Source: Nitrospirota bacterium (GTDB lineage Bacteria; Nitrospirota; Nitrospiria; Nitrospirales; Nitrospiraceae). Taken from it: a DNA stretch of 42,662 bases. Position numbers and translations under genes: made by a program. A model generated the notes under the pieces. The model was not told the DNA's origin and ran no database searches. It saw only the letters and a program-made list of their open reading frames with translations. Positions 20,759 to 25,053 of the stretch are shown piece by piece; positions within the stretch are counted from its first letter, which is position 1; the number at the start of each line of letters is the position of its first letter. Location of the stretch: assembly GCA_030645475.1 (NCBI GenBank), contig JAUSMA010000040.1, forward strand, positions 1-42,662. The letters run 5' to 3'.

Positions 20759-21160
20759 ATGGCCCTCGCTGAAGTGAAAGAAAGTTATAGCCGCTGTTGC
20801 GTCAATCCCAAGTTTTTTGATCTCTTCTATGAGAACTTTCTGGCGAGTCATCCCACGATCGCGCCGATGTTTGCCAAGACGGATATGGCTAAACAGAAGT
20901 CGCTCTTGCGCCAGGGCGTCTCGATGATGTTCATGGATCTGGGCGGGAATGGTGTGGGGAAAACGGGCATTGATCGCATCGCCGAGAGTCACAGCAAGAA
21001 GAAGATGAATATCGATCCCAACCTCTATGACTACTGGATCAATTCTCTGGTAAAGGCCGTTAAGGCATGCGATGCGAAGATGACGCCTGAGCTTGAGACG
21101 GATTGGAGAAAAACATTACGGAGTGGTGTCGACCGGATCGCGTCGCAGTATAACAAGTGA
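20759..21160 (+). CDS. Globin-family protein
   Basis: A 133-residue cytoplasmic globin. A YENFLASHP segment in helix B/C, TDMAKQKSLL in helix E and IAESHSKKKMNIDPNLYDYW around helix F/G fit the single-domain/sensor globin pattern; H78 is the probable proximal haem ligand. The absence of a reductase domain suggests sensing, storage or NO/O2 chemistry with another electron donor. AGGAGTTACG precedes the ATG. A 10-bp hairpin follows the stop, so it is probably monocistronic. Confidence 0.85.
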   Translation: MALAEVKESYSRCCVNPKFFDLFYENFLASHPTIAPMFAKTDMAKQKSLLRQGVSMMFMDLGGNGVGKTGIDRIAESHSKKKMNIDPNLYDYWINSLVKAVKACDAKMTPELETDWRKTLRSGVDRIASQYNK

Positions 21161-21655: not shown

Positions 21656-22102
21656 GTGAAGCGAGCGTTAGTTCTGTGTATCGCGGTATTTATTTCAGTT
21701 GTCTGCGCGCTTGATGCGGGGGCGGGAAATCCCGATGTTGAGTTCAAGATCAAGGTCAATAAAGACGGTTTCAGTGACTCTAATGGACGTCTCATTGACG
21801 TGCCTTTCCATGTGAAGAAGGGCGAATCCGTGCGCGTAACATTTATTTTTGACGAGAAGACCTCTGAAGTCTTGCGCGATCTCATGCGCGCCGCTGAGGA
21901 ACAGCGTGGATTTGTGCATGCATTTGCCCTGCATAATGGCAAGGAAATCGTTGCGGAAACGAAGGAGCTCAGTCTCAAGAATAGACAGGCAATCCTTGAT
22001 TTCATTGCCGGAGACAAGGGGGCACAGAGCTACAAGATTTATTGCACGCTGATGTGCTTTGGCATGGAGCACTTACACAATCTGACGATCGAGGTTGGCT
22101 GA
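21656..22102 (+). CDS. Exported cupredoxin-like protein with CuA-like Cys/His motif
   Basis: A 148-residue protein with a signal peptide (MKRALVLCIA through about residue 23) and a cupredoxin-like beta fold. An early ligand candidate is H88 in FVHAFALHNG. The C-terminal segment KIYCTLMCFGMEHLHN gives C130-x3-C134-x4-H139-x-H141 with M137. CuA sites of cytochrome oxidase subunit II and N2O reductase have C-x3-C-x3-H-x2-M; this resembles that but with one extra residue before His. It is therefore a candidate copper electron carrier or copper binder in the periplasm. The GTG start at 21656 has GGAGG upstream; in-frame sequence to 21602 precedes it. Family assignment is moderate, metal content inferred. 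Confidence 0.7.
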   Translation: MKRALVLCIAVFISVVCALDAGAGNPDVEFKIKVNKDGFSDSNGRLIDVPFHVKKGESVRVTFIFDEKTSEVLRDLMRAAEEQRGFVHAFALHNGKEIVAETKELSLKNRQAILDFIAGDKGAQSYKIYCTLMCFGMEHLHNLTIEVG

Positions 22103-22668: not shown

Positions 22669-22950
22669 CTAGAGCAGGCCGCGTTCTATCTCGTGCAGAT
22701 AGATGAACTCTGGCGCTTTCACGCCGGCCTGTTTTCTGATCGCAATGAGCTCCGGGGACTCGAAGAAACGACGGGCATTGTCCAGCGAAGACCAGGCTGA
22801 GAAGTGGACGATGCGGTTGGTCTCGTTGTCGTAGCGAAGTAATTGATAGCTGATCTCCCCTGCGAGTTTTCTGATGTCTGCGGCTTGGTCGAATACGGCT
22901 TTCCATGCCGGATAGGCTTCGACTTCATGAATGATCAAGACATGTGGCAT
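22669..22950 (-). CDS. ABM/dimeric alpha-beta barrel protein
   Basis: A 93-residue protein resembling the ferredoxin-like dimeric alpha-beta barrel group (antibiotic biosynthesis monooxygenase, EthD and similar). It starts MPHVLIIHEVEAYPAWKAVFD, has a central 'SYQLLRYDNETNRIVHFSAW' strand-helix, and ends with a 'FIYLHEIE' strand. The ATG at 22950 has TTGGAG 6 nt upstream; an earlier ATG in frame (22989) has no family support. The enzymatic role is unproven. Confidence 0.7.
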   Translation of the reverse strand: MPHVLIIHEVEAYPAWKAVFDQAADIRKLAGEISYQLLRYDNETNRIVHFSAWSSLDNARRFFESPELIAIRKQAGVKAPEFIYLHEIERGLL

Positions 22951-23148
22951 GTATGCTCCAAGTATTGGTGGTAGGGGGAGTCCCGTCAAGAGGTTCGTCG
23001 GAGATTGCCTTGGTAATAGGGACGGGGAGTCTCCGTCTCAGAATCGTCAGTCTACATCAAAGCAGAAGACGTACGCATCTCGCAATAGGAGATGCGCCGT
23101 CCCGGCCGGTAGGGTGTCGAGCGTTCTCCGTTGCTGCGAAGGTGGCGC

Positions 23149-23177
23149 TTGACAGGAAGTGTTCCTATCTATAAGAT
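23149..23177 (+). promoter_or_regulatory. Sigma70-type promoter of the DUF2024-marR-trHb operon
   Basis: A perfect TTGACA (-35) at 23149-23154, exactly 17 nt, then TAAGAT (-10) at 23172-23177. It lies about 50 nt before the DUF2024 start. The spacer contains a 13-bp palindrome, described separately. Confidence 0.75.
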
Positions 23178-23204
23178 GTGGACTCCTGAATAATAAATAA
23201 TTCA
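23154..23204 (+). promoter_or_regulatory. Inverted repeats around the operon promoter, possible MarR operator
   Basis: AGGAA-GTG-TTCCT (23154-23166) lies in the spacer between the -35 and -10, and TGAAT-8nt-ATTCA (23187-23204) lies just after the likely start of transcription. Inverted repeats at these places are where MarR-family repressors usually bind, and a MarR gene is in this operon. Binding is inferred. Confidence 0.45.
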
Positions 23205-23225
23205 CGATGTCAGAGGGAGGCCGGG

Positions 23226-23480
23226 ATGGAGACGGTGAAGGTGTTCGATGTGTGGGTGGAGGTGCCGGGAAAGACCCTGCATTTTGATGTCATGACCAGC
23301 GATCAAATAACTGCGCTTAGGTTGGCCAGTGAGTATGTGCAGGCGCAGGGGCATGCGGCAGTCTCCGTGACGGCGGAGGAATGCCGGTTGTGTCACCAGG
23401 AGCCGCTGGCCATGTTCACGGAGCATCAGCAGCGAGCGTATCGACAGTTGGGGGGATTCATCGTGCCGTTATCGGCATAG
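23226..23480 (+). CDS. DUF2024 family protein
   Basis: An 84-residue protein whose pattern fits DUF2024: a FDVWVEVPGKTLHFDV start, a middle helix, then AEECRLCHQEP, a C53-x2-C56 pair followed by His57. Function unknown; Cys/His suggests a metal or redox role. First gene of a likely operon: MarR follows after 15 nt, and the haemoglobin 33 nt later. AGGGAGG lies 8 nt before the ATG. Confidence 0.78.
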   Translation: METVKVFDVWVEVPGKTLHFDVMTSDQITALRLASEYVQAQGHAAVSVTAEECRLCHQEPLAMFTEHQQRAYRQLGGFIVPLSA

Positions 23481-23495
23481 GAGAGGGGGCGAGAG

Positions 23496-24164
23496 ATGGG
23501 CAAGCAGCTACCCCTGCAGGGGGAGAAGTCGACCGTCGATCATATTACAGTCGGACTGACCAAGATCGCGACGGCCTTACGAAGCCAAGCCTGGGAAGGC
23601 GGTACGGCGCGAAAGCTCACGCCGACGCAAGGGCAAATCCTTGGGTTTCTGGCTGATCGCGGGGCCCAACCCGTTCGGCTGAATGACGTCGCGACAGAGT
23701 TGTGTTTGACGGCGGCTACGGCCAGCGAAGCGGTCATGACCCTCGTTGAGAAGAAGTTCGTTCACAAAGCCCGATCGGCGGAAGATCAGCGGGCACTCGT
23801 CATCACGCTCACGGCAGCCGGCAGACGAGAAGCCCAGCGCGTCACGGGTTGGACACAGGTTGTTCAAGCCGGCGTGAAGAGTCTCACGTCTGACGAGCAA
23901 GCGGTGTTGTTACGGGGGCTCACCAAGGTGATTCACTCGCTACAAGAACAGGGGGCGATCTCAGTCGTGCGGATGTGCGCCGGCTGCACCTATTTTCAGC
24001 CCCATATCCACATTGATGCCGCGAAACCTCATCATTGCGGGTTGATGAACAAGGCGATCGGTGAAGGCCAGTTGCGGCTCGATTGTCCGGAATTTATACC
24101 AGGGGCTGAGATCGAACAGACGCGTCGATGGGAGAGGTTTCTGGGAAGTGGGGAGGGGCGCTAA
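23496..24164 (+). CDS. MarR-family regulator with C-terminal Cys/His cluster
   Basis: A 222-residue protein. Residues about 15-150 are a MarR winged helix: LTPTQGQILGFL, then LNDVATELCLTAATASEAV as the recognition helix region and a KARSAEDQRALVITLT wing. Residues 158-200 form an extra module holding C161-x2-C164, H170-x-H172, H179, H180, C181 and C197. That set could bind a metal such as zinc or iron and act as a redox or NO sensor, though this is inferred. Position between DUF2024 and the exported haemoglobin suggests it controls both. GGAGAGG lies before the ATG. Confidence 0.85.
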   Translation: MGKQLPLQGEKSTVDHITVGLTKIATALRSQAWEGGTARKLTPTQGQILGFLADRGAQPVRLNDVATELCLTAATASEAVMTLVEKKFVHKARSAEDQRALVITLTAAGRREAQRVTGWTQVVQAGVKSLTSDEQAVLLRGLTKVIHSLQEQGAISVVRMCAGCTYFQPHIHIDAAKPHHCGLMNKAIGEGQLRLDCPEFIPGAEIEQTRRWERFLGSGEGR

Positions 24165-24197
24165 GCCCTATTTATTATCAATATAAGGAGGACGGTG

Positions 24198-24641
24198 ATG
24201 AAGCAGCGGAATGTGGCGAGCCTGATGATCATGAGTCTGGTGCTGATGGCTGGATCGGTGCAGGCGGCCGATGGAGCCAAGGGAAAGTCGTTGTATGACC
24301 GGTTGGGCGGTAAGGGCGCAATCACCGCAGTGGTGGAGACGTTCGTTGGCAATGTCGGAGGCGATGCGCGCATCAATGGATTTTTCGGGAGTACGGATCT
24401 TACGAAACTGAAGATGCATCTCGTCAACCAGATTTGCGAGGCAAGCGGTGGGCCCTGCAAGTACACCGGGCGGACGATGAAGCAGACGCACGCCGGGATG
24501 GGGGTGCATGACGCGGCATTTGGCGCGCTGGTCGAAGACCTAGTGGTCGCGTTGGATCACCACAAGGTCGGCAAGACAGAGAAGGATGAACTCCTGAGTG
24601 TGCTCGGCCCGATGAAGAGCGATATCGTCGAGAAGAAGTGA
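24198..24641 (+). CDS. Exported group 1 truncated haemoglobin
   Basis: A 147-residue protein. A signal peptide (MKQRNVASLM to about VQAADG) precedes a full TrHb1 (2-on-2) domain: SLYDRLGGKGAI (the AB start), a Phe-Phe near 62-63, KYTGRTMKQTHAGMGV with the proximal His98, and ALVEDLVVAL. Most truncated haemoglobins are cytoplasmic, so export is a special feature; the periplasm is where NO and O2 enter and where copper oxidases work, so NO or O2 chemistry fits. The ATG at 24198 has AAGGAGG 6 nt upstream. Third gene of the DUF2024 operon. Confidence 0.92.
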   Translation: MKQRNVASLMIMSLVLMAGSVQAADGAKGKSLYDRLGGKGAITAVVETFVGNVGGDARINGFFGSTDLTKLKMHLVNQICEASGGPCKYTGRTMKQTHAGMGVHDAAFGALVEDLVVALDHHKVGKTEKDELLSVLGPMKSDIVEKK

Positions 24642-24723
24642 GGTCTGGAGTTGCGGGGGAACCCTATCGGGTATCCCTCGCACTCATGTCGAACTGTCTT
24701 TTCACTCCCGCCTATTGGTGCCA

Positions 24724-25053
24724 CTATGATTTGTGTTTGAGCAAGTCCTTGAGGTTGGAGAAGGGCGTGAAGGTCTCAGGCCGATCCTGCTCATGGCTCG
24801 TGGGCGCGGCTTCAGCTGTCTCAGTCACGCGATACCGCTGGTGCTCATTGTCGTGGCAGTAGAGACAGAGCAATTCCCAGTTGCTCCCATCCGGCGGATT
24901 GTTGTCGTGGTTATGGTCTTTGTGATGGACCGTGAGCTGGTGGAGTTTTTTGCCGTCGAATTCGCGGCCGCAATGCGCACAGATCCAGGGAAACAGTTTG
25001 AGCGCCTGCTCTCGATAGCTCTGGTCCTGATGAGACTGGTTGCCCCGTGTCAT
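24724..25053 (-). CDS. YajD-type HNH nuclease
   Basis: A 109-residue protein. Zinc-ribbon pairs are CAHC (C-x2-C) and CLYC, with a core of LTVHHKDHNHDNNPPDGSNWELLCLYCHDNEHQ holding the HH..N..H catalytic ring of HNH endonucleases. It matches the YajD family, whose members are of unknown biological role. The C-terminus (about 75-109) is acidic and flexible. It stands alone, convergent with the exported haemoglobin gene. Confidence 0.88.
   Translation of the reverse strand: MTRGNQSHQDQSYREQALKLFPWICAHCGREFDGKKLHQLTVHHKDHNHDNNPPDGSNWELLCLYCHDNEHQRYRVTETAEAAPTSHEQDRPETFTPFSNLKDLLKHKS

Follow-up and report, generated by a model that had tools for sequence, protein, structure and literature searches.

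A conserved DUF2024, MarR and truncated haemoglobin operon in Nitrospiraceae, with a four-cysteine regulator and a predicted operator

A locus in a Nitrospira-like genome places a MarR protein with a cysteine-rich C-terminus between a gene of the DUF2024 family and a gene for an apparently exported truncated haemoglobin (trHb), raising the question of which DNA site this regulator reads, which signal it answers and what the three products do together. The locus lies at positions 23149-24641 of the window, that is, the whole stretch of DNA that was analysed (42,662 nucleotides), which belongs to a genome of 3.75 Mb (G000). The regulator is referred to below as Cys4-MarR.

The operon and its conservation in Nitrospiraceae

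A first-pass annotation had described three genes separated by 15 and 33 nt behind a single TTGACA-17-TAAGAT promoter, and the open reading frames, Pfam matches and promoter coordinates agree with that description. The features are as follows, in 5' to 3' order.

23149-23177, + strand: sigma-70-like promoter TTGACA-17-TAAGAT, with the -35 TTGACA at 23149-23154 and the -10 TAAGAT at 23172-23177
23154-23166, no strand assigned: AGGAAgtgTTCCT repeat within the -35/-10 spacer
23177-23189, no strand assigned: predicted operator O1, core TGGACTCCT at 23179-23187, consensus AGGAGTCCT / TNAGGASTCCTNA, directly 3' of the -10 and over the expected transcription start
23187-23204, no strand assigned: TGAAT/ATTCA repeat
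23226-23480, + strand: DUF2024 open reading frame, 84 aa (PF09630, E 1.4e-15)
23496-24164, + strand: Cys4-MarR open reading frame, 222 aa (PF12802, E 8.7e-9; PF01047), winged helix at about residues 40-112
23976-24086, + strand: codons of the CX2C-X16-C-X15-C module, C161 at 23976-23978, C164 at 23985-23987, C181 at 24036-24038 and C197 at 24084-24086
24198-24641, + strand: predicted exported group-I truncated haemoglobin, 147 aa (PF01152, E 7.7e-15), signal peptide at about residues 1-23

The promoter is the top of three sigma-70-like matches within 22950-24800. When the 160 bp 5' of DUF2024 were aligned for 21 orthologous promoters, a -35 element of the form TTGAC/TTGC and a TATA-like -10 held their positions throughout. 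Downstream of the window globin there is a YajD-type HNH gene on the opposite strand and no MOSC gene, while several relatives carry a MOSC-domain gene 3' of the globin (L002, L003, L007, L127, L184, L185). The same strand carries, about 2.1 kb 5' of the trio, a gene for a single-domain globin with a weak PF00042 match (20759-21160, +), of which a copy with 96% identity lies 5' of the trio in L002. An exported protein without an assigned family (21659-22102, +) and an ABM-type monooxygenase-like protein (22669-22956, -) are kept next to the trio in the closest relatives.

Relatives of the regulator are found in 137 of 175 genomes of the family and are mainly of two kinds: orthologues (n=21, identity 63-96%, with the window protein itself at 100%) and a paralogue group that shares 35-43% identity with the window protein and is near-universal in Nitrospira. 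With all three proteins as tBLASTn queries, the order DUF2024, MarR, trHb was seen to be kept at the orthologous loci, and the trio occurs in 21 Nitrospiraceae genomes, so that the co-occurrence proposed as a check on the earlier annotation is borne out and its view of a single regulated operon gains support. The globin gene is damaged at two of the trio loci, being truncated in L029 and interrupted by a stop codon in L028, and no globin was found by tBLASTn at the orthologous locus L030. Since L028 also has a frameshifted Cys module, the operon looks broken in L028 and L029; assembly errors are possible. Neither the globin nor DUF2024 is confined to the trio operon: of 172 genomes of the family, 156 encode homologues of the window globin, mostly elsewhere in the genome, and 142 encode DUF2024.

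A conserved palindrome at the expected transcription start

Comparison of the 21 trio promoters brings out a palindrome that the first-pass annotation had overlooked, present in the window as the O1 core. Its general form, (T)AGGANTCCT(A), lies at the expected transcription start in all 21 promoters. The O1 palindrome is matched with at most one mismatch in 21/21, compared with 1.16 in shuffles, and exact AGGANTCCT is found in 16, compared with 0.04. In seven of the 21 promoters, a second copy (AGGACTCCT) sits in the -35/-10 spacer, always exactly 21 bp, or two helical turns, upstream of O1. The two inverted repeats to which the earlier annotation had drawn attention are both present, but the promoter comparison does not uphold them as operators: only the right half of AGGAAgtgTTCCT is kept among the five closest genomes, its left half not being conserved even in the four closest relatives, and the TGAAT/ATTCA repeat is confined to the five closest genomes. 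As AGGAAgtgTTCCT lies at about the position of the second copy in the seven relatives, it is probably a decayed second operator, O2.

The case for an operator rests on conservation, since a scan of the window alone for AGGASTCCT with one mismatch was not above chance. Across the whole of the trio genomes, TNAGGASTCCTNA occurs seldom, and the trio promoter is mostly its only site or one of two. A search of the window's own genome with WNAGGASTCCTNAW returned one site, outside the trio; the trio site was missed because it contains a mismatch. A perfect AGGACTCCTGA-type site outside the trio in this genome is at L055/L110 (G000:C60:205878-205891). Literature searches on the operator sequence returned unrelated papers only.

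Other phyla were sampled through 18 plasmid records that encode MarR relatives (11.8 Mb), in place of whole genomes; this set is rich in rhizobia and covers Alpha-, Beta- and Gammaproteobacteria, Nostoc, Deinococcus, Thermus and Bacteroidota. The cross-phylum form of the operator, TAGGANTCCTA, has 15 sites in 12 of the 18 loci of about 8.6 kb, compared with 0.045 in dinucleotide shuffles, and the next best of 30 control palindromes with permuted half-sites occurs once in the same loci (0-1). Over the whole 11.8 Mb, the same 15 sites are the only ones, all within 4 kb of a Cys4-MarR gene, compared with six occurrences of a reversed control pattern. Sites lie directly 5' of the MarR gene in Nostoc, Ensifer, Sphingomonas, Sinorhizobium, Defluviimonas, Novosphingobium, Shinella and Rhizobium SL42. 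Others are found 5' of thioredoxin-family or TlpA genes (the thioredoxin-family case in Novosphingobium and Nostoc), 5' of a cytochrome P460 gene in Thermus, and 5' of a run of genes in Spirosoma that begins with DUF2024 and ends with MarR. The deeper Nitrospirota relatives L103 and L104 also have the operator at the MarR gene. In genus g15 (G050, G052), pairs of DUF2024 and trHb genes have no MarR gene between them and retain TAGGAATCCT / AGGAATCCTA 5' of DUF2024, so that the site goes with the globin operon and not with the regulator gene alone. The near-universal Nitrospira paralogue (L010, G000:C15:168036-168662, and relatives) has no AGGANTCCT at its own gene.

A second clade of distant homologues shares the Cys module, has the recognition helix TKGTVSQ and is associated with a palindrome of its own, GTATCGANTCGATAC, in divergent promoters. 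In the Pseudomonas aeruginosa locus (L165:3027-4534), the MarR gene diverges at GTATCGANTCGATAC from genes for a thioredoxin, DUF2024 and a Rho-binding antiterminator. By its gene order, this is probably the PA0942-PA0939 type of locus; a literature search by P. aeruginosa locus tags found no study of the MarR/thioredoxin/DUF2024 locus. Enterobacter sp. 638 has GTATCGANTCGATAC and the same gene order, and Phaeobacter has a variant of the palindrome. In the Nitrospirales family f2, the GTATCGANTCGATAC-linked MarR gene diverges from genes for a thioredoxin-like protein, an exported trHb and a MOSC protein. In six f2 genomes and six records taken together, GTATCGNNNCGATAC occurs 11 times, with eight of these sites at a Cys-MarR gene, and a control pattern has none. 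In a tree of 44 proteins, the second clade takes nine rows and is well supported, with the AGGANTCCT forms scattered over the remainder. Both trHb and DUF2024 are found with both clades.

The four-cysteine regulator and its partner proteins

Membership of the regulator in the MarR family follows from its matches to PF12802 (35.9 bits, cut-off 27) and PF01047 (32.2 bits, cut-off 24.6), and the family profile matches MarR chains in the PDB down to 2.7e-22. The C-terminal module CX2C-X10-17-C-X13-15-C is present in 44/44 sequences of a subfamily that spans five phyla (Nitrospirota, Pseudomonadota, Cyanobacteriota, Deinococcota and Bacteroidota). Among the eight Cys and His residues listed in the first-pass annotation, C161, C164, C181 and C197 are thus invariant across phyla, as the check proposed with that annotation asked, while the histidines are not conserved: H170 is Tyr in most orthologues, and H172, H179 and H180 vary, with His179 frequent and not general. 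The module has no relative in Pfam or the PDB; three PDB matches to ferritin light chains (E 1.2-6) were rejected as chance. AlphaFold2 models have low confidence, with a mean pLDDT of 43 for the whole MarR protein and 40 for the C-terminal module. The Cys spacing resembles that of HiPIP-type Fe-S domains; profiles lend this relation no support, PF01355 being absent from the matches of 19 modules (E<=10), from G000 and from 198 Nitrospirota genomes. Searches of viral contigs gave no relatives. Divergent Cys4-MarR relatives in Nitrospirota adjoin ParB-like and transfer-like genes in mobile-element-like settings (L095, L097, L105, L106, L109, L111, L115, L116, L117, L121).

Four cysteines at near-constant spacing argue for a bound metal or cluster. 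The module probably holds an Fe-S cluster, by analogy with ArnR of Corynebacterium glutamicum, a MarR/ArsR-type winged-helix protein with a C-terminal [4Fe-4S] cluster that represses the haemoglobin gene hmp and is released by NO (PMC12343034). The two proteins have in common the winged helix and the C-terminal cysteine module, and a haemoglobin gene is the target in ArnR. However, ArnR has three conserved cysteines (179, 193 and 223), and its homologues are almost confined to Actinobacteria (PMC12343034), whereas Cys4-MarR has four including a CX2C pair, occurs in other phyla, is encoded inside its operon with an exported trHb in place of Hmp, and has a predicted cluster. All 44 sequences have the four-cysteine pattern in place of the 179/193/223 arrangement described for ArnR, and the best reading is that Cys4-MarR works in the manner of ArnR from outside the ArnR family. 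The Rrf2-type NO sensor NsrR likewise represses NO-detoxifying haemoglobin genes as an Fe-S protein, and the mode proposed here would be alike, but its DNA-binding family is unrelated and the window MarR has no Rrf2 match. CioR and OsbR of Chromobacterium violaceum are MarR proteins that control genes of respiration and stress, and CioR represses its own operon, which gives protection from NO, sulfide and cyanide; with one and two cysteines, respectively, and no Cys4 module reported, they were rejected as the same system. A local MarR autorepressor is of a known kind, and ArnR is a precedent for a MarR-like fold with a C-terminal cluster-type sensor. The subfamily itself is apparently undescribed: Cys4-MarR proteins with two clade-specific operators were not found in the literature covered, which leaves out most subscription journals.

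The third product, described earlier as a truncated haemoglobin with a signal peptide, is confirmed as a truncated haemoglobin by its PF01152 match, and its N-terminus, on inspection, reads as a signal peptide. It belongs to group I, as its PDB matches are group-I globins (best match 2ksc, E 3.2e-17). When 18 exported homologues were aligned with Synechococcus GlbN and Mycobacterium tuberculosis HbN, all 18 had Val at B10, Leu at E11 and His at both E10 and F8 (Val50, Leu75, His74 and His98 in the window), and most of them have a Cys pair (Cys80/Cys87 in the window). Both E10 His and F8 His are shared with GlbN, in which His46 (E10) and His70 (F8) are the bis-His haem ligands, and the invariant E10 His suggests a similar bis-His haem here. 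The window globin differs from GlbN in its predicted export, in Val for Tyr at B10 and in the Cys pair. HbN is also a group-I relative, but its Tyr-B10 and Gln-E11, held necessary for NO dioxygenation, are replaced by Val and Leu, so that the NO oxidation ascribed earlier by transfer from TrHb1 proteins cannot simply be carried over.

The DUF2024 protein matches PF09630 over its full length (57.4 bits, cut-off 27) and has no signal peptide. As noted previously, it carries a CxxCH motif; C53, C56 and H57, together with H19, are invariant in aligned homologues. The only solved relative is PDB 2HFQ, whose family is here tied to Cys4-MarR operons, and the literature on DUF2024 yielded one passing mention.

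Proposed regulation and alternative explanations

Taken together, these observations suggest, with a probability of roughly one half, that Cys4-MarR is a local autorepressor of a globin and DUF2024 defence operon, whose four cysteines, most likely as an Fe-S centre, sense reactive nitrogen or redox stress. A MarR dimer would bind the AGGANTCCT palindromes over -10/+1, at one site or at two sites 21 bp apart, and block transcription. NO, HNO, peroxynitrite or the accompanying redox stress may then alter the C-terminal Cys4 centre and release the repressor, so that DUF2024 and the exported haemoglobin are produced along with further repressor. Outside the cytoplasm, the globin would act on the reactive species, and DUF2024 may take part in the same response as a small metal or thiol protein with its CxxCH motif. 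The low confidence of the AlphaFold2 models, the missing HbN distal pocket, the lack of AGGANTCCT at the gene of the near-universal Nitrospira paralogue and the abundance of rhizobia among the plasmid records weigh against this reading. The first-pass annotation had the regulator switching the globin on; regulation of the operon stands, but the position of the operator at -10/+1 points to repression that is probably lifted on signal rather than to activation.

Indications of the signal come from the neighbouring genes. Globins recur next to the regulator in other phyla, as the earlier link between the two would predict, and they adjoin both clades: trHb in the window clade and in Nitrospirales family f2, protoglobin in Hymenobacter and Agarilytica, and single-domain globin in Nostoc. 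NnrS and cytochrome P460 genes lie near some homologues, and DUF2024 is found near Cys4-MarR in Hymenobacter, Spirosoma, P. aeruginosa and Enterobacter. Globins of three families, NnrS, cytochrome P460 and the ArnR precedent favour reactive nitrogen, and NO is a plausible signal. Many homologues are flanked by genes for TlpA, thioredoxin, Tpx, AhpD-like proteins, catalase, SOD and MOSC, and the signal may thus be oxidative; many of these neighbours are in keeping with thiol or peroxide stress, and sequence is unable to decide between the two.

These thiol and peroxide genes also lend weight to a different, less probable account, in which the same repressor and operator use Cys4 as a thiol switch or labile zinc site to sense oxidants, electrophiles or reactive sulfur, and the globin is a peroxidase-like or redox haem protein. 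The placement of the operator 5' of thioredoxin-family genes in Novosphingobium and Nostoc, the equal ability of four cysteines to bind zinc and a globin with a nonpolar distal pocket and E10 His would all suit it, yet three globin families, NnrS and P460 form a more specific signature of reactive nitrogen, and four cysteines at near-constant spacing exceed the needs of a thiol switch. Improbable by comparison is a structural zinc knuckle in a regulator whose usual MarR pocket takes up a small organic ligand, with the globin link incidental. Classic MarR proteins bind small ligands and structural zinc would suit the Cys4 pattern, but the genes that recur in the neighbourhoods are redox, haem and thiol genes, with no catabolic or efflux gene among them. 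That palindrome and gene order were merely inherited, without regulation, is very hard to credit: many loci are related by descent and several rhizobia are in the plasmid set, but the operator is kept where flanks diverge, with its spacing constant, from phylum to phylum and also in trHb operons that lack MarR.

The autorepressor reading may extend further. Globin, DUF2024, thioredoxin-like and MOSC genes are recurrent next to both clades, and it is tentatively proposed, with less confidence than for the operon itself, that Cys4-MarR proteins form a new class of Fe-S reactive-nitrogen sensors that spans five phyla, with two clades and operators, controls these genes and includes the P. aeruginosa-type locus. 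Such a class would give DUF2024 its first physiological context. If the autorepressor reading is right, a widespread bacterial redox/NO sensor has been overlooked because annotation says only 'MarR family', DUF2024, MOSC and thioredoxin-like proteins would be joined in one stress response, and the control of exported haemoglobin would be explained in nitrite-oxidising Nitrospira that live among NO-producing partners. The conserved operator makes the regulon predictable and testable in culturable hosts such as Nostoc, Sphingomonas and Thermus.

Members of an exported family (about 240 aa, motif WHxHWVVL) also recur near Cys4-MarR genes in Deinococcus, Alphaproteobacteria and Bacteroidota (L043:4796-5539, L044:4666-5382, L046:4704-5444, L049:1673-2404, L050:2843-3610, L051:6032-6748, L167:3143-3892), and the three members compared with Pfam gave no match.
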